A stretch of DNA of 64,000 nt from Pantoea nemavictus. GTDB lineage: Bacteria; Pseudomonadota; Gammaproteobacteria; Enterobacterales; Enterobacteriaceae. This document shows, piece after piece, positions 48,963 to 63,594 of this stretch (position 1 is the stretch's first letter; each line of letters begins with the position of its first letter). The notes below the pieces were generated by a model, which saw only the letters and a program-made list of their open reading frames with translations, made no database searches and was not told the DNA's origin. The translations under genes were made by a program, and so were the position numbers. The stretch covers positions 310,001-374,000 of the forward strand of contig NZ_JBBGZW010000002.1 in NCBI RefSeq assembly GCF_037479095.1, in the 5' to 3' direction.

Positions 48963-49682
48963 TCAGTTGAATAAATCATCGCGATATTTGAACAGCTCAA
49001 TATCGCTTTTGATACCCAGCTTACGCATGCCGGATTGTTTATGGCCGCTGATGGTCTTGCGACTGCGCTTTATTTTGGCGGAGATTTGCAAAATCGTCAT
49101 GCCATCGAGGAAGCAACGCAAAATTTCAGATTCACGCGGAGTAAGCAATTGCACATTACGGAAAACATCTTCACGACTTTCCGCCGCTTCACCTTCTACG
49201 CCCTCTTCGCCCTTATTTATGGGGGCAGATGGCGCTTTTACCGGCATGGCCAGCAGCTCATGTTTAATATTTTCCGGGCGGTAAATCTGACCACTCGCGA
49301 CCTGACGAATAGCATGAAAATACTCTTCCATCGTCGCGCGTTTACTCACGTAGCCACGAATACCAATGTTATAAGCCGTGCGGATCACCGCCAGGCTCTC
49401 AACTGAAGAAGAGAGCAAGATTTTCATCGCCGGATAGTGATTTAAAATCTGACGAATCAGCGATAATCCATCTAACTCTTCATCGCCTAAAATATAATCG
49501 AGGATCAACACATCAGGCCGATCGGTACGTAAGTAACGCATTAACTCGTTGCTCAGGCCAAAACAGCCGCTGAGCACAAAGTCTTTTTCATCCGTAATCA
49601 CCATCTGCAGCGAACTGCGGATAATGGGGTGATCATCCAGTAGAACGATAGATATTTTTTTGTTATCAGATAACCAACTCAT
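48963..49682 (-). CDS. RcsB-like NarL/LuxR response regulator with intact receiver
   Basis: A 239-residue response regulator. The receiver is complete: acidic pair in IVLLDDHP, phosphoacceptor Asp in DVLILDYIL, Ser in ILLSSS, and Lys in GYVSKRA. An unusually long acidic linker (NKGEEGVEGEAAESRED) joins it to the HTH (LTPRESEILRCFLDGMTILQ, then RSRKTISGHKQSGMRKLG), which resembles RcsB. GAGGT precedes the ATG. It is the only regulator in this cluster able by sequence to be phosphorylated, so it is the natural partner for a phosphorelay from kinase 2 or another HPt. It is 51 bp after the tolC-like gene on the same strand. Confidence 0.92.
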   Translation of the reverse strand: MSWLSDNKKISIVLLDDHPIIRSSLQMVITDEKDFVLSGCFGLSNELMRYLRTDRPDVLILDYILGDEELDGLSLIRQILNHYPAMKILLSSSVESLAVIRTAYNIGIRGYVSKRATMEEYFHAIRQVASGQIYRPENIKHELLAMPVKAPSAPINKGEEGVEGEAAESREDVFRNVQLLTPRESEILRCFLDGMTILQISAKIKRSRKTISGHKQSGMRKLGIKSDIELFKYRDDLFN

Positions 49683-49733: not shown

Positions 49734-51677
49734 TCAGCGTAAGTTGCCACTCAGCCATGGAATGAGCTGGCCTGCGCTGGCGTAGCCGCGGAAGGTGGCA
49801 CTGTAACTGTCGAAGCGATTGGTCACTTCGGCCACGCGGTTGTTGTAGTAATCAGATTCTGCAGATAACACGTCAAGCAAAGTCCTTTTCCCAAGGTGGT
49901 ACCACTGGTCAAAGAACGCCAAGCGAATACGATCGGACTCAACCGTCAAATTACGGTAAAGATCAGCACGCTGCAGCATGGAGCGCGCGTCCTGGTCGGC
50001 GTTACGTATACGATAGTCAAGATCGCGCTTTTGTTCTGCAATTTGTTCGCGCTGCGCTTCAGCACGTTGCAGTGCAGCCTGTTCTGCAGCGGTACCTGAA
50101 CCGCCACGGAAAACACCCCAGGTAACATTGACACCGGTCTGCCAGGCTTGCTGACGACCAAATTGATCCTCAGCGGTATTTTTACTCACTACCCAGTTAA
50201 TCTTAGGCAAATTTGATGATCGCACCGCTTTCGCTTCAGCGACAGCGGCTTCAGTTTGCGCGCGCGCCTGACGAATCACCGGATGGTTATCCACTGTGCC
50301 CAGCAAACGCTCAATCGACGCCAGGCTGACATTCCACTGCGCGGTGCGCGGTAACGGAATATCGGTCTGCCCGATTAACTTATGCAAAGTAATTTCGGTT
50401 TCGCGCGCTTTGGCCAGTGCATTATCCAGCGAGGATTGCGCCTGCAGCTCACGTCCTCTGGCCTGGGTTAATTCACTGCGGCGGCCTGGGTCCGAACCGA
50501 CAATGCCACTCAGCATTCGCACCAGCTCTTTCATCCGCGCCACATACTGCTGGCTGAGCTCGATAATCAGGCGCTGTTTACTCAGTTCAACCAACGCAGA
50601 GCTCACCTGCCATGCCAAATCTTCTGCCGATGCATTAACCGCAATACCGGCCGCCTGCGCGGTTTTCTGGCGGCTCTCAATGGTGTTGCTGGTTTGACCG
50701 AAGTCATACAGCGTAGTCGCCATGTTGAGATTCACTGCCGGCGTATTGCTCTGCTTACTCTTCTCGCCACCGCCAAACTGATACGAACGCGAACTGGTGC
50801 CCACATCAACCTGCGGCCAGCGTTGGCCTTTCGCTTCGTCGACGCTGGCATCGGCGGCCTGAGCACTGAACTGCGCGCTACGCAGCTGTGGGCTGGTCTG
50901 CAACGCAATTTGGGTGGCGCGATAGAAAATGGCTCTGAGCGCATTTTCATCCGGACCACCAACATGATGGCTGCGATTCAACGCGCTAGCAGGCGGTAAC
51001 GCATTAATCCGGTTAAGTTGGTTCGCTTCCTTAGTAGAAGCCGCAACCGGCTCTTCCGGTACGGCGGTGAACGGATCGAAATCCAGCTTTTGTTGCTGAT
51101 ACAGCTCCTGCGCCGCCTTTTGCTGCGCTTGCGTGGTTACCGCAGGGCCTTGACCTTTATTCACCTCCACCGGTGTGGCGACTTTCTCCGCCACTAACGT
51201 GGGTTGTGGCAGCACAGAGCTGGCCGAAGCTTGCGGCGCACGTTGTCCGGCTGGCTTGGATGGCGCCGTTTCCCACACCAGCATGCCGCCGGTTCGATCC
51301 GTCGCGCGCGGAGCCGTCACAGGCACCGGCGGTTTGGCGGGTACCGGCGTGGGCACTGCCGCTCGAATCGGTGCCGGTGTCTGGGTTGCTACAGGGCGCG
51401 GCGGTACTGCGGTCAGCGGCGCGGATCGTGCCACCGGCGCAAGCACAGGTGCTGGAGCCGGTGCGGATGGGATGATGACCGCAGGTGCAGGCATTCTTAC
51501 CGGCGCCGGCGCAGGTGCCGGCACAGGTTTAGCTGCGCCCTGCTGCGCCACCGTAACGAACGCTAACAGCTCGTCATCTTCTGTGCTGGCATCTGCCGGA
51601 ACCATCCAAAATTGCGCAGCAATTAACAGCGCCAGCAAGCCAACCTGCGTTTTCATCTGTGAAGTAGAGTTATTCAT
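49734..51677 (-). CDS. TolC-family outer-membrane channel of the type I secretion system, with Pro/Ala-rich extension
   Basis: A 647-residue outer-membrane efflux protein, about 200 longer than ordinary TolC/LapE. A signal peptide ends near VPADAS. Residues about 48-175 are rich in Pro and Ala (PAPAPAPVRMPAPAVI and similar runs), like the periplasm-spanning part of TonB. The TolC coiled-coil barrel follows from about residue 245 (NALRAIFYRATQIALQTSPQ), with TTLYDFGQTSNTIESRQK and, near the end, WYHLGKRTLLDVLSAESDYY, the typical T1SS-TolC motif. The extension may cross peptidoglycan or reach the inner-membrane partners. The gene follows the HlyD-type gene by 2 bp and precedes the regulators. 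Confidence 0.92.
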   Translation of the reverse strand: MNNSTSQMKTQVGLLALLIAAQFWMVPADASTEDDELLAFVTVAQQGAAKPVPAPAPAPVRMPAPAVIIPSAPAPAPVLAPVARSAPLTAVPPRPVATQTPAPIRAAVPTPVPAKPPVPVTAPRATDRTGGMLVWETAPSKPAGQRAPQASASSVLPQPTLVAEKVATPVEVNKGQGPAVTTQAQQKAAQELYQQQKLDFDPFTAVPEEPVAASTKEANQLNRINALPPASALNRSHHVGGPDENALRAIFYRATQIALQTSPQLRSAQFSAQAADASVDEAKGQRWPQVDVGTSSRSYQFGGGEKSKQSNTPAVNLNMATTLYDFGQTSNTIESRQKTAQAAGIAVNASAEDLAWQVSSALVELSKQRLIIELSQQYVARMKELVRMLSGIVGSDPGRRSELTQARGRELQAQSSLDNALAKARETEITLHKLIGQTDIPLPRTAQWNVSLASIERLLGTVDNHPVIRQARAQTEAAVAEAKAVRSSNLPKINWVVSKNTAEDQFGRQQAWQTGVNVTWGVFRGGSGTAAEQAALQRAEAQREQIAEQKRDLDYRIRNADQDARSMLQRADLYRNLTVESDRIRLAFFDQWYHLGKRTLLDVLSAESDYYNNRVAEVTNRFDSYSATFRGYASAGQLIPWLSGNLR

Positions 51678-51679
51678 TA

Positions 51680-52924
51680 TTAACGCTCACGGAATGCTTC
51701 ACGGGCTTTCATCACCGGTTTCAGCAAGTAGTCAAGGATGGTTTTCTCACCGGTACGAATTTCAACCGTGGCGATCATTCCAGGGATAATCGGCAGTTCC
51801 TTGCCACCTGCGTGCAACGAACTGTTATCCGTCAGGACCATCACGCGGTAATAGGTGTCATCCGGGCGACCCGCAGCGGATTTCTGGTCATCTTTTAAGG
51901 TGTCGGGACTGATAAACTCCACTTTCCCGGTCAGACCGCCATAAATCGCATAGTCGTAGGCAGTGATCTTCACCATCGCCGGTAAGCCAGGACGCAGGAA
52001 GGCGACATCAGAAGGACGGATTTTTCCCTCCACCAGCAGCTGATCTTCCAGTGGAACGATCTCCATGATGTGTTCGCCCGGCTGAATAACGCCGCCGATG
52101 GTATTGACGCGCACATTCTTCACCGTGCCGCGCACCGGAGCACTAATGCTGGTACGGTCGAGCACGTCAGAGCGACCAATCAGGTTTTCCGAGGTTTGCG
52201 ACAGCTCCAGCTCCAGTTTGATTAACTCGGAGTTGGCATCGGCCTGGAAGCGGTTCTTACGCTCCACGATTTGCGACAGCAGATCGTTGGCTGAACGGCG
52301 CATACGCAGCAGCTCGACTTCTGACAGCAATCCGCGTTTCGCTAGCGGTTCGGCCAGCGAGACTTCGCGCATCGAGAGCGCATAGCTACGCTGTAAGGCT
52401 TCAACGCTCTCATCCAGCGCTTTCATACGCGAGTTGTAGGCACGCGTCTCCTGCTGAACCACCGCCGGGTCGGACATCACCTGCTCATCAAACTTCAGCG
52501 GCATTTGGTAAGCTTCAGCACGCAAACGCGTAATGGTGGCTTTCAGGCCAATGACTTTATTCAGCACTTCGCGATAGCTCGATTGCGCACGCGTTGGGTC
52601 AATTTTCAGCAGGATTTGCCCCTGCTCGACGATGCCGCCTTCGCGCACGTTCATCTCCGCCAGGATACCGCCTTCAAGACTCTGAATAACCTGCTCGCGG
52701 CTCTTAGAAATAATGGTGGCGTCGCCGCGCGTGATCTCTTCCACCCTTGCCAGACTGGCCCAGATAATGGCGGAGCTAAAAATAAGCAGAATCATCCACA
52801 GCACCAGGCGCGAGCCCGGCGTGCTCTGTGACATCAGTGATTCCTGGATGTCACTCATAAATTGGGCATCGGCGGCAGAGACCGTTTTCTTCTTTTTGCC
52901 GAAACCGAAACGGAGCCATTTCAT
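51680..52924 (-). CDS. HlyD/LapC-family membrane fusion protein of the type I secretion system
   Basis: A 414-residue periplasmic adaptor. A short cytoplasmic N-terminus (basic GFGKKKKTV) precedes one TM helix (LVLWMILLIFSSAIIWASLA), then lipoyl half-motifs (GGILAEMNVREGGIVEQGQIL and, later, APVRGTVKNVRVNT), a long coiled-coil hairpin, and the MFP domain with the HlyD-type C-terminal signature GMIATVEIRTGEKTILDYLLKP. It links the ABC exporter to the TolC-like channel. It overlaps the ABC gene by 4 bp and the TolC gene follows within 2 bp, so all three make one stoichiometric machine. Confidence 0.95.
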   Translation of the reverse strand: MKWLRFGFGKKKKTVSAADAQFMSDIQESLMSQSTPGSRLVLWMILLIFSSAIIWASLARVEEITRGDATIISKSREQVIQSLEGGILAEMNVREGGIVEQGQILLKIDPTRAQSSYREVLNKVIGLKATITRLRAEAYQMPLKFDEQVMSDPAVVQQETRAYNSRMKALDESVEALQRSYALSMREVSLAEPLAKRGLLSEVELLRMRRSANDLLSQIVERKNRFQADANSELIKLELELSQTSENLIGRSDVLDRTSISAPVRGTVKNVRVNTIGGVIQPGEHIMEIVPLEDQLLVEGKIRPSDVAFLRPGLPAMVKITAYDYAIYGGLTGKVEFISPDTLKDDQKSAAGRPDDTYYRVMVLTDNSSLHAGGKELPIIPGMIATVEIRTGEKTILDYLLKPVMKAREAFRER

Positions 52925-55212
52925 ACTGTCTTCTCCTCAGCTTGCGCCTCTGGGTTCACGGGCTCGTTCGCTGAGGCCTGCGGGGTGGCAACGGCTTTCT
53001 GTTGCGCCCGCGGCTGAGCGTTATCGCCACGCAGGCTCGCCAGAATTTTGTCTTTAGGACCGTCAGCGGCCACCTTGCCGTTTTCGACGATGATGATGCG
53101 ATCAACCAGTGCCAGCAGTGAGGGACGATGTGTCACCACCACCAGCGTCTGTTCCGCCGTGGCACGCTTCAGGTGCTCAAGGAAAATGGCCTCGGTTTGG
53201 TTGTCCATCGCGCTGGTGGGTTCATCAAGCAGCAATACTTTAGGGCGCAATAACAGGGTGCGCGCCAGGGAGACCAGCTGACGCTGCCCACCCGACAAGG
53301 CGTTGCCGTGCTCGCCGACCGGCAGGTTGATCCCGCTTGGATGACGCGCAGCAATTTGATCCAGTCCGGTAAGACGCAGCACACGCAGCAGTTCATTGGA
53401 GGTGGCGTCTGGCTGGCCAATCATCACGTTTTCACGCAGGGTGCCGTAAAACAGACGTGCATCCTGGCCGACGTAGCCCACCGAACGACGCCAGTCCGCA
53501 GGGTCGATCTGGTTAATGTCCAGCCCACCGGCAAATACCTGCCCTTTCACGGGTTGATACAGGCGCGCCATAATGCGCAGCAAGGTCGATTTACCGCTGC
53601 CGATGCGTCCCAGAATCGCCACACGCTCACCCGCTTTAATGTTGAAACCGATACCGGTGAGGATTTCCGGATTAGGGCGCATAGGCGGTGCTGGATAAGA
53701 GAACGCAATCTCTTTCAGCTCAATGTCGCCATTGAGTTCTGGCTCCGGCAGATAGTTCTGCTGTGGGTCACGATCGGTCGGCATATCCATCAGCTTGTTA
53801 AGCGAATCGAGAGCCGCTTTCGCCTGCTGGAAACGCACCGCTAACCCCATTACCTGGCCTAGCGGCGCCGTGGCGCGGCCCGACAACATCACGGTCGCGA
53901 TCAGCGCACCCATGGTCAGCGTGCCATCGGAGATCAGATACACACCAATCACAATCAACAACACGGTCTGGAACTGCTGCAGGAACGTCACGGCACCCAT
54001 CGCGGCGGTAGAAATACGCTTTGATTGCATGCCGCTGGTGGCCTGCATGGCGCTGAAGTTCTGCCAGCGGCGCTGCATGTGGGCTTCACCCGCTACGGCT
54101 TTGAGGGTTTCCATGCCTTCAATCGATTCAATCAACACGCCTTGCTTCAGTGAGGCTTCCTGCAAGTTACTGCGCATGATTTTCTTCAGCGGCCACTGAA
54201 TAATCAGGCTGACCAGGATAATGGTTGGAATCATCATCAACGGCACCCATCCCAGCGGGCCACCGATGGTGAAGATGACGGCAACAAACAGCAGGACAAA
54301 CGGCAAGTCAGAAATTGCTGCCAGAGTTGCAGATGAAACAAAGTCACGTACCGATTCAAACTCACGCAGCTGGTTAGCAAACAGGCCAGATGAGGACGGC
54401 TTATTCTCCATGCGCACCGCCAGAGCCTGGCGGAACAGCACGCTGCCCAAAATCAAATCTGCTTTTTTCCCCGCCACATCAAGCAGGTGCGCACGCACGT
54501 AACGTGTGACAGCTTCAAATACCATCGCTACCACCACGCCAATCGCTAATGACCACAGCGTGACAAACGCCTGGTTTGGAATTACTCGGTCGTAAACGTT
54601 CATGGTGAAGAAGATGCTCGCCAGCGCCAGCACGTTGACGATCACTGCCGCCAATGCAGCGCTGCGATAATAGCGGCGATACACCCACAAGGTGCTGAAC
54701 AACCAATGCTTCTGGTTTTGTGGCAGGTCTTCTGCCACTTGCGGATCCACTTTCGCGGTGGGTTTCACCAGAATGGCGAAACCGGCGTACCACTCCATCA
54801 GCTCTTCATGTGTGATCTCTACCGGTGACATGCTGACTTCCGGCATGATCAACTGGTAGTAAACCGTCATCTTATCTTCTTCGTTTTTGCGACGTTCACG
54901 GCCTAACAACAGCGTCCCGCCCGCGCCTTTGCGAATCAGAATAATCGGCATAACCTGCTCAGGCAGCTCCCACGCCTGACGCTCTACCAGACCGCCGGTC
55001 ATGCCGGCATTTTCCAGCGCCTTGAGTGCCAGCGATGGCGTCAGCAGCGTGCCTTTTGGCAAGCCGGCCATTAAGGCGTCATCACTTTTACCTAAACCGT
55101 AGTAGTGGCAAACCCAGGAGAGGCTTTGCAGTAGTGTGTCGTCAATACGTGTTTGCACGCGCGCAGTGGCTTGCAATTCAGATTGTTGCTCTGTCAGCGA
55201 ATTCGCATCCAT
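52921..55212 (-). CDS. Type I secretion ABC exporter, LapB-like with C39-like domain
   Basis: A 763-residue exporter ATPase. The N-terminal 150 residues form a C39-like domain that lacks the peptidase Cys (TLLQSLSWVCHYYGLGKSDD), as in LapB and RTX-type exporters, where it holds unfolded substrate. Six TM helices span about 170-440. The nucleotide-binding domain has Walker A GRIGSGKST, signature LSGGQRQ, Walker B VLLLDEPTSAMD and switch His in VVTHRP. The tail after LRGDNAQ is Gln/Ala-rich. It begins the secretion operon; the palindrome at 55311-55324 lies about 100 bp upstream. LapB-type exporters move large repetitive adhesins, but no such adhesin gene is in the window. Confidence 0.95.
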   Translation of the reverse strand: MDANSLTEQQSELQATARVQTRIDDTLLQSLSWVCHYYGLGKSDDALMAGLPKGTLLTPSLALKALENAGMTGGLVERQAWELPEQVMPIILIRKGAGGTLLLGRERRKNEEDKMTVYYQLIMPEVSMSPVEITHEELMEWYAGFAILVKPTAKVDPQVAEDLPQNQKHWLFSTLWVYRRYYRSAALAAVIVNVLALASIFFTMNVYDRVIPNQAFVTLWSLAIGVVVAMVFEAVTRYVRAHLLDVAGKKADLILGSVLFRQALAVRMENKPSSSGLFANQLREFESVRDFVSSATLAAISDLPFVLLFVAVIFTIGGPLGWVPLMMIPTIILVSLIIQWPLKKIMRSNLQEASLKQGVLIESIEGMETLKAVAGEAHMQRRWQNFSAMQATSGMQSKRISTAAMGAVTFLQQFQTVLLIVIGVYLISDGTLTMGALIATVMLSGRATAPLGQVMGLAVRFQQAKAALDSLNKLMDMPTDRDPQQNYLPEPELNGDIELKEIAFSYPAPPMRPNPEILTGIGFNIKAGERVAILGRIGSGKSTLLRIMARLYQPVKGQVFAGGLDINQIDPADWRRSVGYVGQDARLFYGTLRENVMIGQPDATSNELLRVLRLTGLDQIAARHPSGINLPVGEHGNALSGGQRQLVSLARTLLLRPKVLLLDEPTSAMDNQTEAIFLEHLKRATAEQTLVVVTHRPSLLALVDRIIIVENGKVAADGPKDKILASLRGDNAQPRAQQKAVATPQASANEPVNPEAQAEEKTV

Positions 55213-55310
55213 TTCAGCATCTCAGTCGGTGTGTCGTTGGTGGCAATTCTTCGTGCAGGAATATTCCTGCGATTTGAGAAAATTCTGACAGACGGGAGGG
55301 AGGGGAGATA

Positions 55311-55324
55311 CAAGCCGGGTCTTG
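55311..55324. promoter_or_regulatory. Cluster palindrome, site A (upstream of the secretion operon)
   Basis: CAAGCCGGGTCTTG, a copy of CAAGAC-N2-GTCTTG with one mismatch, 99 bp upstream of the ABC exporter start. It differs from site B by a single base. Confidence 0.7.
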
Positions 55325-55411
55325 GTTGCTTTAAGGTTTCAGGCACAGAAATAAGAAATTTCTTTTTCTTTTAGGATTAAGATGATTGGAAAAAAGATCG
55401 ATATGGCAAAA

Positions 55412-55450
55412 AACCCAATAAACCTTAATCTAATTAGGGTTTATTGGGTT
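55412..55450 (-). terminator. Intrinsic terminator of the small exported protein gene
   Basis: AACCCAATAAACC and GGTTTATTGGGTT form a perfect 13-bp stem with a 13-base loop. On the minus strand it ends in GGGTTTTTTG. It separates the secretion operon from the genes upstream on the same strand. Confidence 0.9.
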
Positions 55451-55465
55451 GATATGAAGTAACAA

Positions 55466-55972
55466 TTAAGGCGCGACAACGCCCTTGTGACAAACCTGAA
55501 TGGTAGATGCGCGCGAAAGTAAATGGATACTTTTATCCAGTCCACTTAATTCATTAAGCGCCATTGACGCGGGTTTAATAACCGAGCGACCGTTAATTTC
55601 ACTGTCTACGCGCAGATATACCGTTTCACCTTGCGCCAGTTGATATTCGCCAGTCAACGCTTCCTTGCCTAAATAGTGCGGCGCTTCCTTTGTCCAGGCA
55701 CTGATAAAGTGTTCCCCTGGCGTCAGGCAAAATACCACATAGCTGTTTGGCTGCAGCGAGGCGTGATATTCACCGTTCACATATAAATTAGCCGTTCCCT
55801 CAGTAAAACGATCGTCTTTACGATAATAAACGATGCGCGCCTGATCCTGACCAAGCTCACTTTGTACGAAGGCTGATTCAATGGTTGAGGCATTTTCTGG
55901 GGTGGGGTGAATTGCAAAACCATTTTTCATCCACAGCATGAAAAGGGTCAGAAGAAAAATTCTTTTTGTCAT
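55466..55972 (-). CDS. Exported DUF2846-like small protein, paralogue of the 270-residue neighbour
   Basis: A 168-residue protein with a signal peptide (MTKRIFLLTLFMLWMKNGFA). The core matches the neighbour at 57478-58290: both have an N-terminal YYR/FYR strand, then ANLYVNGEYHASLQPNSYVVFCLTPGEHFISA here against ANIYINGKMHTSLLPGG and FCVQPGTHH there, then a YLRVD strand and IHLLSRAST with a Cys near the end. This layout, small Tyr/Gly-rich strands around 'V-N-G' and 'P-G-x-H', is that of the DUF2846 type, though I name it with reserve. Two conserved Cys may form a disulfide. It has no OmpA part. It lies 41 bp after the Ig-module gene and ends at a strong terminator. Confidence 0.8.
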   Translation of the reverse strand: MTKRIFLLTLFMLWMKNGFAIHPTPENASTIESAFVQSELGQDQARIVYYRKDDRFTEGTANLYVNGEYHASLQPNSYVVFCLTPGEHFISAWTKEAPHYLGKEALTGEYQLAQGETVYLRVDSEINGRSVIKPASMALNELSGLDKSIHLLSRASTIQVCHKGVVAP

Positions 55973-55981
55973 CGGAGTTTT

Positions 55982-56005
55982 GCGGGTATTGATTAAAATA
56001 CCCGC
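55982..56005 (-). terminator. Hairpin between two genes of the cluster
   Basis: GCGGGTAT and ATACCCGC form an 8-bp stem with an 8-base loop just after the Ig-module gene and before the small exported gene. It has no T-run, so it could act as an RNA-processing or attenuation point. Confidence 0.4.
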
Positions 56006-56013
56006 CTTCCATC

Positions 56014-57300
56014 TTAATAGGTATTATCTGAGAGTCGGTTATCCTGCAGCGGCTCGAGCGGATTAGCCACAAAGCTGGCGACATCACCCAACTGCGTCAG
56101 CATCAATGTCTCTTCCTCTTCCCACAGCGTGATGCCGCCTTGTGGATGAATCAACATTTGCAGGCTTATTTCATCCAGTGGTGGCGACAGCTCCAGCGGC
56201 ATTTCGTCTAAGAACAGATCTGATTCACCCACTGGCAGCAATTCACTGAGACCAAAAGCAAAGTCAACTTTAGCTGGCTGAATAACCGGTTCAACCGGCG
56301 TCAGATTAATCGGTGAAGCGGTGTCAATTAACGGCACGGTGGTGATGAGCGGAACCGCGCTGACCAAGTCCGACAGACTTACATCATCGCTCTCCACGGG
56401 TTTGGCCTGAACCACGACCAGTCGAATCGGTTCTGCCGCGATTTCACGTACACCTTGGGTGTCAGTGGTAAACAGCCGGAACTCATAATCCCCTTCCGCC
56501 AGTGGTTTTTGTAGTTGAATAAACCAGTTACCGCTGGCATCTACCACGCTGCTGCCCATCACTTCACCATGCTGGTTAAGGACTTCAACCAGCGTTGCAG
56601 GTGCGGCTTTCCCGGCGAACGTCAAACGATCTTCATCAGATAGCGTGGCATCCAGCAGAGATTCCTGACGCTGATTGAGCACTTCAAAGCTGAAGTTGCT
56701 GGCGTCATTCAGCGATGAATCAATCACCGCTTCGTCTAACAGTTCAAGTTCACTGGCAGCCAGTTCGAGCTGGGTGAAACCGGCATCTGCTCTCTGTGAC
56801 TCGGCCTGCATATTTAACGGGATATTTTCAATCTCAGATACGATCTCGTGCAGAGTTTCCGTTGCGAGAAAAACGTCGCTCTCTTCAGATTCAGCTTTAG
56901 ACGTCTGCGGCTCTTTTGGCTGCGCAACTTCTGTATCAGCAGCGATGGCCGCCCACTGGTCTACCAGCTCGACTTTAGTGACTGCCGCGGCGGCTTTCGC
57001 ACTCGCCATCACCATTTCATAACTACTTTCACGGTCCATTGCCGCCATGCCGCCAAGCGCCAATAACGAAGCGGCGGAGCCGTGCACCAACATGCCATGC
57101 AACGTCATTACGCCGTTAGCCTGGTTTAAGGACTGCATCAATTGCCCGCCTTCGGACCATGCATGGCTGCGCACATCAACATTCTGCCAATCATGGGCTT
57201 TGAACTTATCAGTGCGATCTGTAGACAAGTTTTGCTGTATCAGGTTGGACAACCACGCAGTCGGGGCGGTGCCAGCCAGGGTAGGAGTAAATAATTTCAT
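56014..57300 (-). CDS. Uncharacterised acidic protein with one bacterial Ig-like (Bap-type) module
   Basis: A 428-residue protein that I cannot assign to a family. ATG 57300 (MKLFTPTLAG) follows GAGG. There is no classical signal peptide. The middle is very acidic; a segment around residues 230-300 (LVEVLNQHGEVMGSSVVDAS, then GNWFIQLQKPLAEGDYEFRL) matches the Ig-like repeats of Bap/BapA adhesins. The C-terminus is acidic with scattered aromatic residues (ITLWEEEETLMLTQ, then DNRLSDNTY) but no RTX nonapeptides. It lies between exported genes and next to a LapB-type secretion operon, so it may be the cargo, an accessory of the cargo, or the remnant of a larger adhesin. A cluster palindrome lies 124 bp upstream. 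Confidence 0.75.
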   Translation of the reverse strand: MKLFTPTLAGTAPTAWLSNLIQQNLSTDRTDKFKAHDWQNVDVRSHAWSEGGQLMQSLNQANGVMTLHGMLVHGSAASLLALGGMAAMDRESSYEMVMASAKAAAAVTKVELVDQWAAIAADTEVAQPKEPQTSKAESEESDVFLATETLHEIVSEIENIPLNMQAESQRADAGFTQLELAASELELLDEAVIDSSLNDASNFSFEVLNQRQESLLDATLSDEDRLTFAGKAAPATLVEVLNQHGEVMGSSVVDASGNWFIQLQKPLAEGDYEFRLFTTDTQGVREIAAEPIRLVVVQAKPVESDDVSLSDLVSAVPLITTVPLIDTASPINLTPVEPVIQPAKVDFAFGLSELLPVGESDLFLDEMPLELSPPLDEISLQMLIHPQGGITLWEEEETLMLTQLGDVASFVANPLEPLQDNRLSDNTY

Positions 57301-57423
57301 TGTGAATATCCTCATTCGCCGCAGAAGTTGCAGTTTTCTTCACATCAGAATTGCTGAAAGACGGGCTGCACTCGCTGTCCCGCCATATCAGACAATTCTG
57401 GTGTTCTGGCGATAACTTCACCA

Positions 57424-57437
57424 CAAGCCAGGTCTTG
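57424..57437. promoter_or_regulatory. Cluster palindrome, site B (upstream of the Ig-module gene)
   Basis: CAAGCCAGGTCTTG, one mismatch to CAAGAC-N2-GTCTTG, 124 bp upstream of the ATG at 57300 and within the 177-bp gap after the OmpA-like gene. Confidence 0.7.
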
Positions 57438-57477
57438 ATTGTGCCGATTGTGTTATCGCGGATATTGCCAACTGAAA

Positions 57478-58290
57478 TTAATTGACCTGCAGAACAAAGA
57501 CGTTTTGCTGCGGCAGCGCATTGCGCACGAAGGTGATGCTGTCGGGAGAGATAGCGGCATCGATAAGCGCCTGACGGAACTGCGCTTCACGCTGCTGTTG
57601 CGCGGGCCGGGTGCTACCTGGATCGACCATATTGACTTGCAGCTGATTGATCCACGCGTGGTCCTGGCGGATTTGCACCACTAAATCGGCGATGGCTTCG
57701 CGTCCCTGCTGCGACAAAGTGGTGTCAGATAAGAACAGCGATTGGCTGGGTAACAGATAATCTACCCTGGGCTGCGTCAAGGCATAATCAAAGGCACAGG
57801 GCAGCGCGGACGTGGCGCGGGACAGCAAATGCGCCTGGCGACGCGTCTGTTTTAACTCATCTTCCCCTAACGCAGATTTGACCGATTTAGGCGGTTCATG
57901 CATCAAGGTATGCTCATCTACCCGCAAGAAATAGGTGCGTCCGGGCTTCATGGTGGTCACAAACTGGCTTTTATCCTCTCCCGTGGCAGGTAAAAACCGC
58001 CCTAACCTTACGCCAAGATGGTGAGTGCCGGGTTGTACACAGAAAGAGGTGTAACCGCCGGGCAATAAGCTGGTGTGCATTTTTCCATTGATATAGATAT
58101 TTGCTCCACCACTGGCGGTGACAAGAGCATTCTGCCGGTAAAATACCACCTGGCTCAGGGCTTGCGTCACCGGTTGATGTTTCCGATAAGCCTCACCAAA
58201 AGGATTGGTTGAAACAGTCGAGGCAATAACCGAAGGTACAACGGCAGCAAACAGCAGCGAGCCAATCACCAGACGCTTAGCAGCAGGCAT
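57478..58290 (-). CDS. Exported DUF2846-like protein with OmpA-like C-terminal domain
   Basis: A 270-residue periplasmic protein with a signal peptide (MPAAKRLVIGSLLFAAVVPSVIAS). Residues about 45-160 are the same domain as the 168-residue neighbour. Residues about 165-270 form an OmpA-like domain: LPSQSLFLSDTTLSQQGREA, then the strand-helix pattern ending QREAQFRQALIDAAISPDSI. This domain normally holds peptidoglycan, but the strict ligand pair is not obvious here. OmpA-like proteins accompany many adhesin-exporting type I systems. It is transcribed on the minus strand between the lipoprotein gene and the Ig-module gene. Confidence 0.82.
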   Translation of the reverse strand: MPAAKRLVIGSLLFAAVVPSVIASTVSTNPFGEAYRKHQPVTQALSQVVFYRQNALVTASGGANIYINGKMHTSLLPGGYTSFCVQPGTHHLGVRLGRFLPATGEDKSQFVTTMKPGRTYFLRVDEHTLMHEPPKSVKSALGEDELKQTRRQAHLLSRATSALPCAFDYALTQPRVDYLLPSQSLFLSDTTLSQQGREAIADLVVQIRQDHAWINQLQVNMVDPGSTRPAQQQREAQFRQALIDAAISPDSITFVRNALPQQNVFVLQVN

Positions 58291-58429
58291 TTTAGATTTC
58301 CCTGGAAATGTCTAAATAGAGCGGCAGCATACCGCCACCTTCTACAACGTTTTAATTGCCGCCAGCCTAGGTAAATTGAGTTTTTATTGGAACAAGATGT
58401 ATCCCGGTTTTAAAACCCGATAAAACCAT

Positions 58430-58458
58430 AAACCCCGTTCTTTTGCTGAACAGGGTTT
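58430..58458 (-). terminator. Terminator of the lipoprotein gene
   Basis: AAACCCTGTTC and GAACGGGGTTT (minus strand) form an 11-bp stem with one G-T pair and a 7-base loop, followed by ATGGTTTTATCGGGTTTT. It lies 15 bp after the lipoprotein stop. Confidence 0.75.
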
Positions 58459-58473
58459 AAATGATGATGTTCT

Positions 58474-58875
58474 TTAAGCTGCCTTAATAATGCTGGTCGC
58501 CAGCTCGCTTTTTACCCGGAAGCACACATCGCGAATAGCAAATTGATATTTAGGCATCGCCAAATCATTTACATCACTGCTGATACCATTTTTAACTTCG
58601 AGGTACTTTTTCAATTGGCCAGCGGTTCTATCAAACTCATTTTTAAATTGCTGATGTTTAGCCACGTTATAGGTCTGCAGTGCATCCAGTTCTTTACGGC
58701 ACTGCATAATACGCGAGGCGTAATCCTGGGTCTGAGATTCGGCAGCAGAAACACGTAAAGGTTGTGCCGGGGCCGTTACCACGGATTTTACTTCAGGTGC
58801 AGGAGTCGATTTATTGGCTGCCACGCAACCGGACAGTAATAAAGCGGCGCTAATGGCAGTGACGATACTTTTCAT
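58474..58875 (-). CDS. Small outer-membrane lipoprotein, unknown function
   Basis: A 133-residue lipoprotein. The signal is MKSIVTAISAALLLSGCVAA with lipobox LLSGC; Cys17 is the lipid-anchored residue and +2 is Val, so outer-membrane sorting is expected. The mature protein has a flexible Pro/Ser-rich part and then a helical region (YASRIMQCRKELDALQTYNV) with two further Cys. I use ATG 58875 with AGGG upstream; an in-frame ATG 14 codons earlier would mask the signal. It is divergent from kinase 2 and carries a cluster palindrome 100 bp upstream. I do not recognise the family. Confidence 0.82.
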   Translation of the reverse strand: MKSIVTAISAALLLSGCVAANKSTPAPEVKSVVTAPAQPLRVSAAESQTQDYASRIMQCRKELDALQTYNVAKHQQFKNEFDRTAGQLKKYLEVKNGISSDVNDLAMPKYQFAIRDVCFRVKSELATSIIKAA

Positions 58876-58974
58876 TTTAAACCCTATGTTGAGATAGAAA
58901 TATCGCAACTGACTCATTGGTTAGACGCGATATCGGATGCGGCAGATAGTAGGAATTTTCTTACATATCGGATA

Positions 58975-58988
58975 CAAGACTCATCTTG
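58975..58988. promoter_or_regulatory. Cluster palindrome, site C (upstream of the lipoprotein gene)
   Basis: CAAGACTCATCTTG, one mismatch to CAAGAC-N2-GTCTTG, 100 bp upstream of the lipoprotein ATG at 58875. Confidence 0.7.
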
Positions 58989-59131
58989 GTTTATTTCGGG
59001 CGCGGTGTTTTGCCGCTTTTAGCAAGCAAAATGTCACCTGAACACGCTGTCAGTGACGCTTATCTGCCAATAAGGAAATTAGCGCTAAATGAATATTGCT
59101 GCGTGATTTGATGGCACGCGCTGATTATCGG

Positions 59132-59145
59132 CAAGACGTGTCTTG
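59132..59145. promoter_or_regulatory. Cluster palindrome, site D (upstream of kinase 2), perfect copy
   Basis: CAAGACGTGTCTTG matches the consensus fully, and the symmetry extends to G...C on both sides (59131-59146). It lies 146 bp upstream of the kinase ATG at 59291. Confidence 0.75.
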
Positions 59146-59290
59146 CATTGATTCATAACCATGATATTTCTTCGTCGGGCATCCAGGAAAAAGCTACACT
59201 TCCCGCCTATCTTTACGCTTAACAGCAACCTGATCCCTCCGTTAACCTGCGGTGATCTACGCAAATTTTCCTACAGGACCACACGTTTTT

Positions 59291-62200
59291 ATGCTGCGAA
59301 AACTTCTTAACTCAGGAATTGCCTTGGTGCTATTAAGCCTGCTGGCCACTGCGGTATCAGCGGCTTCCACACCTCTGACGTTAGTTCCACGCAGCGAGGT
59401 CATCACTACGCAGGTTAAATTTGATGCGCCCATCACCCGTTGGCTGGCTCAGCATCCAACCTTAAAAGTGGGCGTTTGGGGCCCCGATCAGCCGCCGATT
59501 TATTTGAGCGTGGATCCCACAACCTATGAAGGCTTAGCGGCAGATTACATCCATGTGCTGGAACGCGCGCTAGATGTCAAAGTTGAAGTGCATCGCTTTG
59601 CCAGCCCTGCAGACGCGCAGGCCGCATTAGCGGCGGGCAGCATCGATTTACTCAGCGCCTACAATGCCGATTTGTACCCAAGCGACAACATCGTTCCCAG
59701 CCTGCCCTGGTTGCTGGATCACTCGGTATTGTTGTTACGCGATAAAGAGCCAGCGAACTCGCCGCTGAACTTAACGGGACGTACGCTGAACTATATTGCC
59801 GATTACAGTCGCGCTTCGGAGCTGGCGCAGGCTTATCCGGATGCCAGTATCAAACCCGAATTAAGCTACATCAATGCCGTTTCTGCCGTGGCGTGGGGGC
59901 AAAGCGACGCGACCTGGATTAATCGCTCAACCGCCGATTTCATTATCCGGAATGGTTTCGCGACTAAGTTCCGAATTATTCAAAGCCCGGTACTCAGTAA
60001 TCTCAATCTCTCGTTTGGCGTGAGTAAAAGTAATCCACTGCTGCTGCGGGCGATCAATGAATCCTTAAACCGCATCCCGCTCGCCAGCCGTATTGGCATT
60101 GCCAATCGCTGGGGATTAACCAGCGACAATGTGATTAAAGCCAATCCGCTCGCACTCACGGCGGAAGAGCAGAACTGGCTGCGCACCCATCCGGAAATCA
60201 CCGTGCTGTTCAACGCCACCACGGCGCCCAACGCTTTTATCAATAAAGAGGGCAAGCTCAACGGTGTGGTGGTGGACTTGATGAATACGCTGGCGTCCCG
60301 CTATGGCATGAAGTTTAACTTCATCGCGGCACACGGGCGCGCCGAAATGATCCGCTTGGGTCAGCAACATCCGGATGCGCTCTACGCGGTGGTGCCGATG
60401 ACGGCAGATTACCAAACCACCTGGAATGTACTGACCACTCGTCCCTATCTGATGACGCCGGTGGTGCTGATGGTTAATGCCACCTCGCCCACCCTCAGCA
60501 GCTTGACGGCGATGCGCGGGCGCAAAATTGCGGTAACGCAGTTCAATCCGATAACGCCGTGGCTGCAGCAGCACTATCCCGATATCGCCATCGTGACCAA
60601 TCCTTCGGTGGAGATGGGTTACGCGATGATGAAAAAAGGGGAAGTCGACGGCGTGGTGACCACCCAGTTTGACGCGAATTATCTGCTCGCCTCTGATCCC
60701 GAGCGCGGCTTCAAAATTGGTATTCGTTTAGGCGATGACATCGCCCGAATTGCCATGGCCGCTAACCCTGATAATCCGCTGCTGGTCAGTATCATGAACA
60801 AAGCGCTGCTGGATCTACCGCCTGAATCATTGCAGCGCATTAATGCGCACTGGCAACCGAAAAACAACGTGCTGCGCCAGCCATCGTGGCGCGACTGGCA
60901 GGGTGTGATTGTGAAAGTGGCGGCGTGCATTGTGCTGGTGGTTGCGCTGCTGCTGCTGTGGACCCGTCACATTCACCGCATCAGCCGGCAGCGTGAAAGC
61001 GCGCGGCGTGCCCTTGCCGATCAGCTCGCGTTTGTGCGCACGCTCATCGATGCCTCACCGATTGCGCTGTACGTGATGGATCGTGAAAAGCGCCTGGTGC
61101 ACTCCAACCCGGCATTACGTCAGGCATTGAACGCGGGAGAGGATAAGACGCTCGCGGAGTATTTACTGGAAAGTGACCATCTGGATGAACAGGTTAAGGA
61201 TCGTCTGCGAACCATCATTAAACGGGTAATGACCGATGGCGTGCCGGAAGTTTACGAAGGCCCGCTGAAGTTAAATAACGCCATCTGCTTTGTTCACCAC
61301 TGGATTGTGCCGTGGCGTGACACCAACAACGAGGTGGTGGGCGTGATTGGCGGCTGGCTCGACATCAGCGAAAAAGAGAAGCTGGTGAATGACCTGCGCA
61401 GCGCCAAAGACGAAGCCGATTTGGCTAACCAGTCGAAGAGTGTGTTCCTCTCCAGTATGAGCCATGAAATTCGCACGCCGATGAATGCGATTATTGGGCT
61501 GCTTGAGCTGGAGGTGAATGAGCATCAGCAGCAGGGCATCAACAACGAGAACGTGCGCGTGGCCTGGGAATCGGCCAAGTCACTGCTGCTGTTGATTGGC
61601 GATATTCTTGATCTGTCGAAGATTGAGTCGGGCACCTATGAGCTGCGTCCGAGCTGTATTGATGTGCCGCAGCTGGTCAGCAGCGTGGTCAATCTGTTTG
61701 AGAATCGCGCGCGCGAAAAAGACCTGGAACTGACGCTGGAAGTCGAACTGGAACATACAACCTATCTGCTTGATCCGCTGATGATTAATCAGCTGGTTTC
61801 CAATCTGGTCAGTAACGCTATCAAATTCACCGACAGCGGCAGCGTGACGGTAAGCGTTTATCAATCTCAGGAGGTTAATGACGGGCGCAGCGATCTGGTG
61901 ATCGATGTGACCGACACCGGACCAGGATTGACCAGCGAACAGCAGGAACGCATTTTTGCTCCGTTTGTTCAGGTTGAAGGACGCAAAGCGCGGCTCGGCA
62001 CCGGACTGGGCTTGAGTATCTGTCGACGCTTAGCGGAGTTAATGGGCGGTGAACTGCAGGTTGAAAGCGAACCCGGCGAGGGCGCGAGTTTCCTGTTTTA
62101 CTTCTCCGCTGAGGCCTGCGCCGCAGAAACCATCGCGCTAAGCGCCGACGATGACGAGCGCTCGATGCATGTGCTGATTGTTGACGATCATAGCCCCAAT

Positions 62201-62878
62201 CGCCTGCTGCTAACCCAGCAGCTGGAGATGATGGGCCACCAGGTAATAGCCGCCGAGAGTGGCGAGCAGGCGCTTGAAATCCTGCATTCTGGCGTGGCGG
62301 TCGATCTCATCACCACCGATGTCACAATGCCTGGCATGGATGGTTTTGAACTGACGCGCCATATTCGCCAGTTGGAGCTGCAGCACAATAAAGCGCCCAA
62401 GCCAATTCTGGGACTGACTGCGCATGCGCAATCCAGCGTGGTGGATAAATGCCGCGAAGCCGGCATGAACGAATGTCTCTTTAAGCCCGTGCGCAGCGCA
62501 CAATTACATGACGCGGTGAATCGATTAATGGGTCGCAGCGCATTCACCCCGGTCAAAGATATTATCTCCGACGATCAGAAACGTCTGCAGGCATTAAAGT
62601 TTTTACACGAAGAAGTTATTCGCACCAATCGCAGCGATCTGCACAAATTGACAAAAATGGTGGAGAGCGGTGATCGTTTGCAAATAGCCAAAATGGCGCA
62701 CCGATTACTCGGAGGTGCACGAATTATGCAGAGAAATGAACTGGAAGAAGCCTGTGCCCTGCTGGAAAATATCAGTCAGGACGAAAGTTGCACTATTAGT
62801 GATTTTCGTGAAGCATTAATAGCGATCACAGAGAGAGTGGATGAACTTGAACGTCAGTTAACCGCTGACGGAGAGTAA
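59291..62878 (+). CDS. BvgS/EvgS-type hybrid sensor kinase with complete phosphorelay (kinase 2)
   Basis: A 1195-residue hybrid kinase with the same layout as kinase 1. It has a signal sequence (MLRKLLNSGIALVLLSLLA), two periplasmic solute-binding domains (from LKVGVWGPDQPPIYLSVD and from ITVLFNATTAPNAFINKEGK), a TM helix (VIVKVAACIVLVVALLLLW), PAS, HisKA with His725 (MSHEIRTPMNAIIG), HATPase (SNLVSNAIKFTD, GTGLGLSIC), a receiver with Asp1010 (LITTDVTMPGMDG) and an HPt domain with His1137 (AHRLLGGAR). All four phosphorelay sites are thus present. ATG 59291 is preferred over a GTG 39 bp upstream because it gives a normal signal sequence. A perfect cluster palindrome lies upstream, and its partner regulator follows after 98 bp. 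Confidence 0.93.
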   Translation: MLRKLLNSGIALVLLSLLATAVSAASTPLTLVPRSEVITTQVKFDAPITRWLAQHPTLKVGVWGPDQPPIYLSVDPTTYEGLAADYIHVLERALDVKVEVHRFASPADAQAALAAGSIDLLSAYNADLYPSDNIVPSLPWLLDHSVLLLRDKEPANSPLNLTGRTLNYIADYSRASELAQAYPDASIKPELSYINAVSAVAWGQSDATWINRSTADFIIRNGFATKFRIIQSPVLSNLNLSFGVSKSNPLLLRAINESLNRIPLASRIGIANRWGLTSDNVIKANPLALTAEEQNWLRTHPEITVLFNATTAPNAFINKEGKLNGVVVDLMNTLASRYGMKFNFIAAHGRAEMIRLGQQHPDALYAVVPMTADYQTTWNVLTTRPYLMTPVVLMVNATSPTLSSLTAMRGRKIAVTQFNPITPWLQQHYPDIAIVTNPSVEMGYAMMKKGEVDGVVTTQFDANYLLASDPERGFKIGIRLGDDIARIAMAANPDNPLLVSIMNKALLDLPPESLQRINAHWQPKNNVLRQPSWRDWQGVIVKVAACIVLVVALLLLWTRHIHRISRQRESARRALADQLAFVRTLIDASPIALYVMDREKRLVHSNPALRQALNAGEDKTLAEYLLESDHLDEQVKDRLRTIIKRVMTDGVPEVYEGPLKLNNAICFVHHWIVPWRDTNNEVVGVIGGWLDISEKEKLVNDLRSAKDEADLANQSKSVFLSSMSHEIRTPMNAIIGLLELEVNEHQQQGINNENVRVAWESAKSLLLLIGDILDLSKIESGTYELRPSCIDVPQLVSSVVNLFENRAREKDLELTLEVELEHTTYLLDPLMINQLVSNLVSNAIKFTDSGSVTVSVYQSQEVNDGRSDLVIDVTDTGPGLTSEQQERIFAPFVQVEGRKARLGTGLGLSICRRLAELMGGELQVESEPGEGASFLFYFSAEACAAETIALSADDDERSMHVLIVDDHSPNRLLLTQQLEMMGHQVIAAESGEQALEILHSGVAVDLITTDVTMPGMDGFELTRHIRQLELQHNKAPKPILGLTAHAQSSVVDKCREAGMNECLFKPVRSAQLHDAVNRLMGRSAFTPVKDIISDDQKRLQALKFLHEEVIRTNRSDLHKLTKMVESGDRLQIAKMAHRLLGGARIMQRNELEEACALLENISQDESCTISDFREALIAITERVDELERQLTADGE

Positions 62879-62898
62879 TTCTCCTGTGATATTTTTTA

Positions 62899-62912
62899 AA
62901 AGACACGTCTTG
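62899..62912. promoter_or_regulatory. Cluster palindrome, site E (upstream of the second EvgA-like gene)
   Basis: AAAGACACGTCTTG, one mismatch to CAAGAC-N2-GTCTTG, in the 98-bp gap between kinase 2 and the regulator gene, 65 bp before its ATG. Confidence 0.65.
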
Positions 62913-62976
62913 GTCATTATCCGCTAAATGCTGTGTTACAGTATTTTACGGTTGTTTAAAGGAGGATTATTTCAGG

Positions 62977-63594
62977 ATGACCACTATTTCTGTAGTTGAA
63001 ACGAACCCGCTTATACGTCGCGGATTAAAACGTATTTTAACCGAACGCGGTTATAACATTGCTGTTATCGCCGAAACGTTAGATGAGATGCTGTTTAGCA
63101 ACATTAATCACAAACCGCAGATCCTTATCCTGGAGCCGTTATTTCAGGATCAGTTAGCCTATGAAAAACTGGAGCTGCTGCGCAGTTACAACCCAAAACT
63201 TAAAACATTAATTCTATCTATTTCAGAGAGTTACTATCATATTCAGCAAAGCCTGCAGATGGGCATTGAAGGCTATGTGTGTAAATCCTGGCCGTTAGAG
63301 ACGTTATTTGAGTCCATTGAGGAGATTGAAGAGGGTAAACACGCTTACTCTAAAGAGCAGTTCCAGCACAAAGATAAATATCCGAATGATGCCCGTATTT
63401 TATCCTCGCTTACCCGCCGCGAGTTTCAGGTGTTACGGATGTTTGGCGCTGGAAAGTCGATTAAGACTATCTCTCAGGAAATGAACCTGAGTAATAAAAC
63501 CATCAGTACCTATAAAGTGAAAATGATGCAAAAAATGGCGACCAATAACGTCATTGATATTGTTGACCTGGCACGTAGAAATTTTCTTTTTTAG
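62977..63594 (+). CDS. EvgA-like LuxR-type regulator, acceptor Asp replaced by Glu
   Basis: A 205-residue regulator of EvgA layout. In the receiver the acidic pair is Glu8-Thr9 (VVETNP), and the phosphoacceptor position is Glu53 (QILILEPLF), a natural mimic of a phosphorylated Asp. The Lys (Lys103 in GYVCKSW) is kept. The NarL-type HTH is intact: LTRREFQVLRMFGAGKSIKT, then LSNKTISTYKVKMMQKM. It could bind DNA in a constitutively active-like state. A GGAGG site lies about 12 bp before ATG 62977. It follows kinase 2 and has its own cluster palindrome, which may indicate self-control. Confidence 0.92.
   Translation: MTTISVVETNPLIRRGLKRILTERGYNIAVIAETLDEMLFSNINHKPQILILEPLFQDQLAYEKLELLRSYNPKLKTLILSISESYYHIQQSLQMGIEGYVCKSWPLETLFESIEEIEEGKHAYSKEQFQHKDKYPNDARILSSLTRREFQVLRMFGAGKSIKTISQEMNLSNKTISTYKVKMMQKMATNNVIDIVDLARRNFLF

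Follow-up and report, generated by a model that had tools for sequence, protein, structure and literature searches.

A palindrome of a Pantoea secretion and kinase cluster, best read as the operator of an RcsB-type circuit

The closest described counterparts of the element studied here are the binding sites of RcsB. Excerpts of two sources give the RcsAB box as a 7-7 inverted repeat, TAAGAAT-ATTCTTA (PMC4381331, PMC7298118), and a partial text of a third places RcsB homodimer sites usually upstream of the -35 element and describes the motifs of different RcsB dimers as having one half in common and the other half variable (PMC5651002). We analysed a 64,000-nucleotide stretch of Pantoea nemavictus (NCBI RefSeq assembly GCF_037479095.1, contig NZ_JBBGZW010000002.1, positions 310,001 to 374,000 of the forward strand; hereafter the window), which lies on the second, 887-kb contig of a genome of 5.19 Mb in two contigs (G000). 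Copies of the palindrome CAAGAC-N2-GTCTTG fall in the gaps of a gene cluster for a type I exporter, an HlyD-type adaptor, a TolC-type protein, three NarL-type regulators (RR1, RR2 and RR3) and two EvgS-type hybrid kinases. The palindrome is best read as a real operator with a regulon, namely as the shifted operator of an RcsB-type circuit that would control giant adhesins.

The palindrome shares with the RcsB or RcsAB box the 7+7 inverted repeat, in which only the N2 spacer is enriched, the AAGA-N4-TCTT core, the greater constancy of one half and a probable place next to the -35 position. It differs in its half-site, which is CAAGAC here and not TAAGAA, although TAAGAA halves do occur in chromosomal gaps between RR1-like genes and kinases. 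Like RcsB, RR1 has an RcsB-like helix-turn-helix (HTH) domain with the base-reading lysine and would be fed by a hybrid-kinase phosphorelay; unlike RcsB, it has a glycine at the S184 position and scores far below the RcsB equivalog cut-off. In contrast to the Rcs system, EvgS-type kinases with substrate-binding domains would receive the signal, and the targets would be type I secreted adhesins with immunoglobulin-like (Ig) repeats.

EvgS-EvgA of Escherichia coli resembles the locus in its kinase architecture, and RR2 and RR3 are nearest to EvgA; here, however, it is the RcsB-like regulator whose receiver is intact, those of the EvgA-like proteins being degenerate, and the targets would be others. 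Like the RcsB partners RcsA, BglJ, GadE and MatA, RR2 and RR3 are NarL-type HTH proteins that may act as partners of an RcsB-type regulator, but they come nearest to EvgA by sequence and their pairing is our proposal. The giant adhesin systems of the SiiE/BapA type likewise combine an LssB-type exporter, an HlyD protein, a TolC-like protein and thousands of Ig-like-repeat residues; what would set this locus apart is that several adhesins and the regulators encoded beside them stand under one operator. Among the matches listed in a literature search at the level of titles and abstract starts, with subscription journals mostly outside it, neither this operator nor an RcsB-like regulator of Pantoea giant adhesins was found, and the 15 of 3,636 matches listed for the half-site letters were unrelated work.

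Palindromes and their place in the promoters

Rescanning the 64 kb for CAAGAC-N2-GTCTTG with at most one mismatch returned exactly the five sites that the initial annotation had listed, with one mismatch each at 55311, 57424, 58975 and 62899 and none at 59132, and all five lie outside the open reading frames (ORFs) of the cluster, as it had also stated. No further place in the window matched at two mismatches, and at three the 17 matches show no excess over the 22 expected. The claim that the sites exceed chance was upheld by dinucleotide shuffles, which yielded a mean of 0.07 matches at up to one mismatch and reached five in none of 100 cases.

A second control used 48 permuted half-sites of equal composition, with genes called mechanically as ORFs of at least 110 codons. 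The 20-kb cluster of the window holds five intergenic sites at up to one mismatch, and every one of the 48 permuted palindromes gave zero. In 24 stretches from other genomes, which include orthologous loci so that site counts are not independent, 22 intergenic sites at up to two mismatches compare with a control mean of 1.85 and a maximum of 7. Cluster by cluster, at the same threshold, the counts were 5 vs 0.06 for the window cluster, 5 vs 0.19 for G069 (a genome labelled as the same species) and 4 vs 0.06 for G004 (Pantoea sp. SOD02), and the single site of the G067 cluster was equalled by 2 of the 48 controls. There was no clear excess inside ORFs. The N2 spacer is strict: at up to one mismatch we counted 18 intergenic sites with N2 and none at each of N0, N1 and N3 to N8, and at two mismatches 41 with N2 vs 0 to 9 for the other spacers.

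The suggestion that the palindrome is an operator defining a regulon was strengthened by the G000 genome, which contains 20 places at up to one mismatch, where the reversed pattern has 5, and 5 perfect places, where it has none. Three of the 20 lie clearly in genes (L007, L015 and L016) and two more are doubtful (L012 and L013). Among 60 relatives the counts at up to one mismatch are mostly below the reversed-pattern control; the few genomes clearly above it include, besides G000, G004 (14 vs 6), G031 (14 vs 8) and G003 (9 vs 5).

Four of the five window sites are followed gene-ward by a -10-like hexamer at a nearly fixed distance. The putative operator before the exporter gene (55311-55324, minus strand; CAAGACCCGGCTTG when read gene-ward) lies 99 bp from the start codon, with CAGAAT 23 nucleotides (nt) past it (55282-55287, minus strand). 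The Ig-module gene has CAAGACCTGGCTTG (57424-57437, minus strand) 109 bp before its start and the same hexamer at 23 nt (57395-57400, minus strand). Before the lipoprotein gene, CAAGATGAGTCTTG (58975-58988, minus strand) stands 58 bp from the listed start and about 100 bp from an inner ATG, with TACTAT at 23 nt (58946-58951, minus strand), and before RR3, AAAGACACGTCTTG (62899-62912, plus strand) stands 65 bp from the start, with TACAGT at 24 nt (62937-62942, plus strand). The perfect palindrome before kinase 2 (59132-59145, plus strand; 107 bp to a GTG or 146 bp to an ATG) lacks a -10-like hexamer at this distance (23-24 nt), whichever way it is read.

A weaker sequence before the DUF2846 gene, CGGGATACATCTTG (58393-58406, minus strand), had been put forward as a decayed sixth site. 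It has four mismatches and cannot stand alone; it is nevertheless plausible as an operator because the -10 spacing is right (TAGGCT at 23 nt, 58364-58369, minus strand), and it retains one half-site, TCTTG. The lipoprotein promoter also contains an RcsAB-like box, TAGGAATTTTCTTA (58950-58963), which overlaps the spacer and the first -10 bases and through which the ordinary Rcs system may act on this promoter; in G069 the equivalent position reads CAAGAATATTCTTA.

We scored the position by the rule that a NANNNT hexamer starts 23 or 24 nt past the site when read gene-ward, for which the background is 0.147 per site. The rule held for 22 of 25 chosen rows and for 36 of all 46, in which rows are not independent, gene direction was chosen by hand and L203:9277 is counted in both directions. 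The choice dropped seven G069 rows that are near copies of G000, nine G000 non-adhesin rows (fadH, RamA-like, hydrolase, aquaporin, SleB-like, L014, L010 twice and a small ORF) and five others (the second directions of three divergent sites, G031b and the RR1 row of G075); the dropped rows follow the rule in 6/7, 6/9 and 2/5 cases, respectively. The gene names fadH, RamA-like, SleB-like, dacA and putA are ones that we presume from the look of the sequences. For the 42 perfect sites of the genus, a hexamer matching in at least four of six positions was found at 24 nt in 12/12 sites before fadH and 5/5 before an ORF of 43 residues, and at 23 nt, toward a divergent hydrolase gene, in 3/13 beside the RamA-like gene; four of the remaining 12 have such a hexamer and eight, including the kinase 2 site, have none. 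As a rough negative control, NANNNT occurred at 23-24 nt in one of five clearly or possibly coding G000 sites, and six other intergenic G000 sites outside the cluster had it in five cases in at least one direction.

If the hexamers are real -10 elements, the site centre would fall at about -42.5 or -43.5, compared with -41.5 as the reference for class II activators, and this placement, 23-24 nt before a -10-like hexamer and near -43, is new here. Such a position would suit an activator acting in place of a poor -35 element; we infer activation from position alone. When 55150-63000 was scanned for sigma-70 promoters, none of the four promoter-like matches coincided with a site, which is what one would expect if an activator takes over the role of the -35 element.

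In a relative that bears the cluster, the operator is kept while the flanks diverge. G069 has a rearranged and partly diverged cluster, in which RR1 is 99% identical and the DUF2846 protein 63%, and at least 13 of 14 site bases are retained at five of the six promoters compared, two of them trivially as the whole region is conserved. At the exporter promoter the site is 14/14 identical and the upstream flank 12/40, at the Ig-module promoter 13/14 and 7/40, at the large adhesin promoter 14/14 and 11/40 (with 4/22 in the spacer) and at the lipoprotein promoter 12/14 and 14/40. The RR3 promoter (site 14/14, flank 35/40) and the smaller adhesin promoter (flank 39/40) are uninformative, and the kinase 2 gene of G069 lies divergent to the adhesin gene, has the intergenic region in common with it and lacks a site of its own. 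Comparing the two clusters as a whole, the regulator operon is nearly identical, whereas the DUF2846 protein and the gene order differ, so that the surface part of the cluster seems to diversify fast.

That the palindromes are chance products or a repeated element without regulatory meaning is close to negligible as an explanation: short palindromes can arise as terminators, and the three clear and two doubtful coding sites of G000 would agree with it, but the shuffles, the permuted controls, the divergence of the flanks, the fixed -10 distance and the strict N2 spacer disfavour it.

RR1 as the candidate binder

The initial annotation named the NarL-type regulators of the cluster as likely binders and spoke of EvgA-like ones among them. 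This holds up in part: indirect evidence points to RR1 (48963-49682, minus strand), not to all three equally, and RR1 is RcsB-like, not EvgA-like. The nearest solved structures to RR1 are those of RcsB, and its predicted structure is likewise nearest to RcsB, including RcsB-DNA complexes, with whole-chain TM-scores of only about 0.5. HTH identity to RcsB is 27/54 for RR1, 19/54 for RR3 and 17/54 for RR2. Against the RcsB equivalog NF008098 (cut-off 235 bits), RR1 scores 91.3 bits and its chromosomal paralogue 111.9; against EvgA NF007419 (cut-off 251 bits), RR2 scores 136.1 and RR3 76.1; all are below the cut-offs, yet these are the best families by E-value.

The RR1 receiver is complete, with D16, D17, D62 and K114 invariant in 26 aligned sequences, and is followed by a LuxR-type HTH. 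RR2 (48328-48957, minus strand) and RR3 (62977-63594, plus strand) lack the DD pair and the phospho-Asp, which is replaced by S and E, respectively, so these receivers probably cannot be phosphorylated, and RR1 is the sole cluster regulator with an intact receiver. In RcsB, K180 and S184 read the G and A bases of the half-site, according to part of the text of PMC5829831. RR1 keeps the lysine and has G in place of S184, a change that could plausibly explain the altered flanking bases.

Six of the genes, for the exporter (52921-55212, TIGR03375), the HlyD-type adaptor (51680-52924), the TolC-type outer membrane protein (49734-51677), RR1, RR2 and kinase 1 (44660-48247), run in the same direction on the minus strand with gaps of at most 80 bases, and the 55311 site therefore probably serves all six, RR1 included. 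Both kinases are hybrid kinases that we take to be EvgS-type from the look of their sequences. Kinase 2 (59252-62878, plus strand) comprises HisKA, HATPase, receiver and Hpt domains. For kinase 1, the profile search at E 0.001 gave no Hpt domain, and on visual inspection a histidine is lacking at the position of the kinase 2 sequence MAHRLLGG, so this kinase may rely on kinase 2 or on a different Hpt. The remaining genes of the cluster, all on the minus strand, encode the Ig-module protein (56014-57315), a DUF2846-like protein downstream of it that scores below the Pfam gathering threshold (55466-55972), a DUF2846 protein (57478-58290) and a putative lipoprotein, assigned by eye, with no family match in Pfam or NCBIfam (58474-58917). 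The label OmpA-like, which had been given to the 57478-58290 product, has to be withdrawn, as the protein matches Pfam DUF2846 and has no OmpA match at E 0.001; a homology search with it against named species genomes found no relative, and relatives with species names were obtained from a plasmid collection.

We consider it fairly probable that the palindromes are operators of RR1 fed by the cluster kinases. In this scheme the EvgS-type hybrid kinases would phosphorylate RR1, with kinase 2 as the only recognisable source of an Hpt domain. RR1 would bind the 7+7 repeat CAAGACN-NGTCTTG at about -43, substituting for a poor -35 element, and would activate the exporter operon, in which its own gene lies, the adhesins, the accessory proteins, the lipoprotein and RR3. 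More tentatively, RR2 and RR3 might occupy the promoter-proximal half-site as partners. That half is somewhat more variable, as the promoter-distal half has 137 and the proximal half 124 of 150 consensus letters in the 25 chosen rows. Binding and activation by RR1, the wiring of the phosphorelay and the heterodimers are all things that we infer from the sequences.

Co-occurrence supports a link to RR1. Across 61 genomes of the genus, with RR1-like defined as at least 39% identity and phylogeny ignored, perfect sites occur in 17 of 23 RR1-positive and 2 of 38 RR1-negative genomes (p 2.4e-8), compared with p 0.0017 for the chromosomal EvgA-like orthologue and 0.11 for the reversed control pattern.

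On these figures the view that EvgA is the main binder was demoted. Under this view homodimers of RR2 or RR3, or of the chromosomal EvgA-like protein, would occupy the palindrome and the targets of RR1 would lie elsewhere; we regard it as unlikely. It draws on the site in the RR3 promoter, on sites at other EvgA-like genes (L205 and L216; weaker at L202 and L220) and on a perfect palindrome just 3' of a chromosomal EvgA-like gene in six genomes (G000, G069, G023, G067, G004 and G083). The latter site, however, also precedes fadH, with the -10-like hexamer directed fadH-ward, and persists in six genomes that lack a close orthologue of this EvgA-like gene (G021, G034, G063, G066, G074 and G079). 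Perfect sites also occur in RR1-positive genomes that lack an EvgA-like match at E 1e-20 (G010, G017, G021, G034 and G066), although weaker matches exist there, and the HTHs of RR2 and RR3 are less RcsB-like and both receivers lack the acidic pair. A role of the same palindrome as terminator of the chromosomal EvgA-like gene was dropped, as genomes that lack the gene still have the palindrome before fadH, with the -10-like hexamer at a fixed place.

A further reading places the cluster within the Rcs regulon, with ordinary RcsB, with or without RcsA, at the sites. The AAGA-N4-TCTT core common to site and RcsAB box speaks for it, as do the RcsAB-like box of the lipoprotein promoter with its G069 counterpart and the behaviour of the two half-sites at two mismatches, where TAAGAA and CAAGAC tie outside the window cluster (35 vs 34 intergenic sites). 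At one mismatch, in contrast, CAAGAC fits better than TAAGAA, with 6 vs 2 sites for the window cluster together with its continuation and 12 vs 4 elsewhere, and only 2 of the 38 RR1-negative genomes, which presumably carry rcsB, have perfect sites. We judge this reading quite unlikely.

Several observations weigh against RR1 as the binder. These include the tie at two mismatches, the kinase 2 site at 59132 without the -10 spacing, and a promoter-like match at 55409 to 55382 (minus strand), upstream of the exporter site, that might serve the exporter operon independently. Eleven of 21 stretches around RR1-like genes have no intergenic site at up to two mismatches (the other 10 have a close one), and six of the 23 RR1-positive genomes lack a perfect site. 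Conversely, G074 and G018 have perfect sites and no RR1-like gene in their single-contig 4.3-Mb assemblies, which possibly miss a second replicon; both carry the site beside the RamA-like gene, and G074 also carries the fadH one. The RamA-like palindrome is thus found in two genomes without RR1, and it mostly lacks the -10 distance. In addition, the co-occurrence test ignores phylogeny, and many of the sites counted are orthologous and non-independent.

The kinase 2 site, the 11 stretches without a close site and the RamA-like sites could also be taken to mean that the palindromes belong to an unrelated regulator, or are repressor sites, with RR1 as a bystander. We hold this to be very unlikely as a general explanation, although the RamA-like sites themselves may belong to another regulator: the position of the sites is activator-like, their geometry is RcsB-like, and the gap between RR1 and a divergent kinase contains a site in 8 of the 21 stretches and in all 11 aligned chromosomal gaps, two sets that overlap. 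In the alignment of these chromosomal gaps from 11 genomes, ACCACA[TC]AAGA, with TCTT seven bases on, is among the most conserved blocks; the gap reads TAAGAATTGTCTTG, with one half of the CAAGAC and one of the TAAGAA type, and a variant of it is present in 11/11. No convincing site was seen at the RR1-like loci on Janthinobacterium and Burkholderia plasmids: L225 has one with three mismatches, far from a gene, and L226 has none.

Genes that the operator would connect

If RR1 does bind the palindrome, its regulon would extend beyond the window. A site lies 134 bp before the gene for a 3226-residue Ig-repeat adhesin just outside the window, and three more ORFs of the second contig are preceded by weaker sites (two or three mismatches); the two of their products that were tested are Ig-repeat proteins. 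On the chromosome, a site lies 120 bp before a fimbrial operon (fimbrial protein, chaperone and usher), and two-mismatch sites are found at a paralogue of the exporter and RR1/kinase locus. A partial text of PMC5651002 describes a fimbrial operon as being under MatA-RcsB control, too. Pfam matches among the products of site neighbours include an FMN oxidoreductase, an AraC-family HTH protein, an aquaporin (MIP), an usher, a chaperone and fimbrial proteins. In G004, a one-mismatch site (L088:13309) lies 86 bp before an autotransporter gene that adjoins an RR1-like gene, which suggests that the regulon may also include other types of adhesin.

Taken to its full extent, which we put forward as a speculative and rather doubtful proposal, this would be a second Rcs-like adhesion circuit that has evolved in Pantoea, in which an RcsB paralogue with a dedicated operator receives its input from EvgS-type sensors and forms heterodimers with EvgA-like proteins that have lost phosphorylation, one of which is itself in the regulon. 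The operator would couple giant adhesins on both replicons, the fimbrial operon, the 43-residue hydrophobic protein and a structured leader or small RNA before fadH. Two replicons would then share a single regulon. The system offers a testable case of a regulator paralogue and its operator diverging together from a well-studied parent, the RcsB box, with the geometry retained. It also gives an operator, a position rule and a gene list from which the production of giant type I secreted adhesins could be predicted in Pantoea and relatives.

The stretch between the fadH-type site and fadH (L017:3213-3383) is conserved over 155-173 nt in orthologues from nine other genomes and folds into a long stem ending in at least seven T, in which, for 3 of the 29 pairs, one or more sequences have both partners substituted. 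No family covered it in Rfam scans of 12 site-bearing stretches, with no match for L017, and we regard it as a candidate small RNA or leader, possibly a parallel to RprA of the Rcs system.

The conserved 43-residue small ORF (L006:2765-2896, minus strand; counterparts in L152, L154, L162 and L164), whose product has a single hydrophobic stretch, starts about 100 nt past a perfect site with CAGAAT at 24 nt, in a gap between convergent genes of the AraC type and of the presumed SDR type. The RamA-like palindrome (L018:3008 and 12 other genomes) is a perfect one located between the gene for this AraC-family regulator and the divergent hydrolase gene. Finally, the chromosomal intergenic region that separates the RR1-like gene from its kinase gene contains a second conserved block around AGAAYGGTCGCAAAA (L021:14263-14748), which is present in 10 of the 11 genomes, G024 being the exception.

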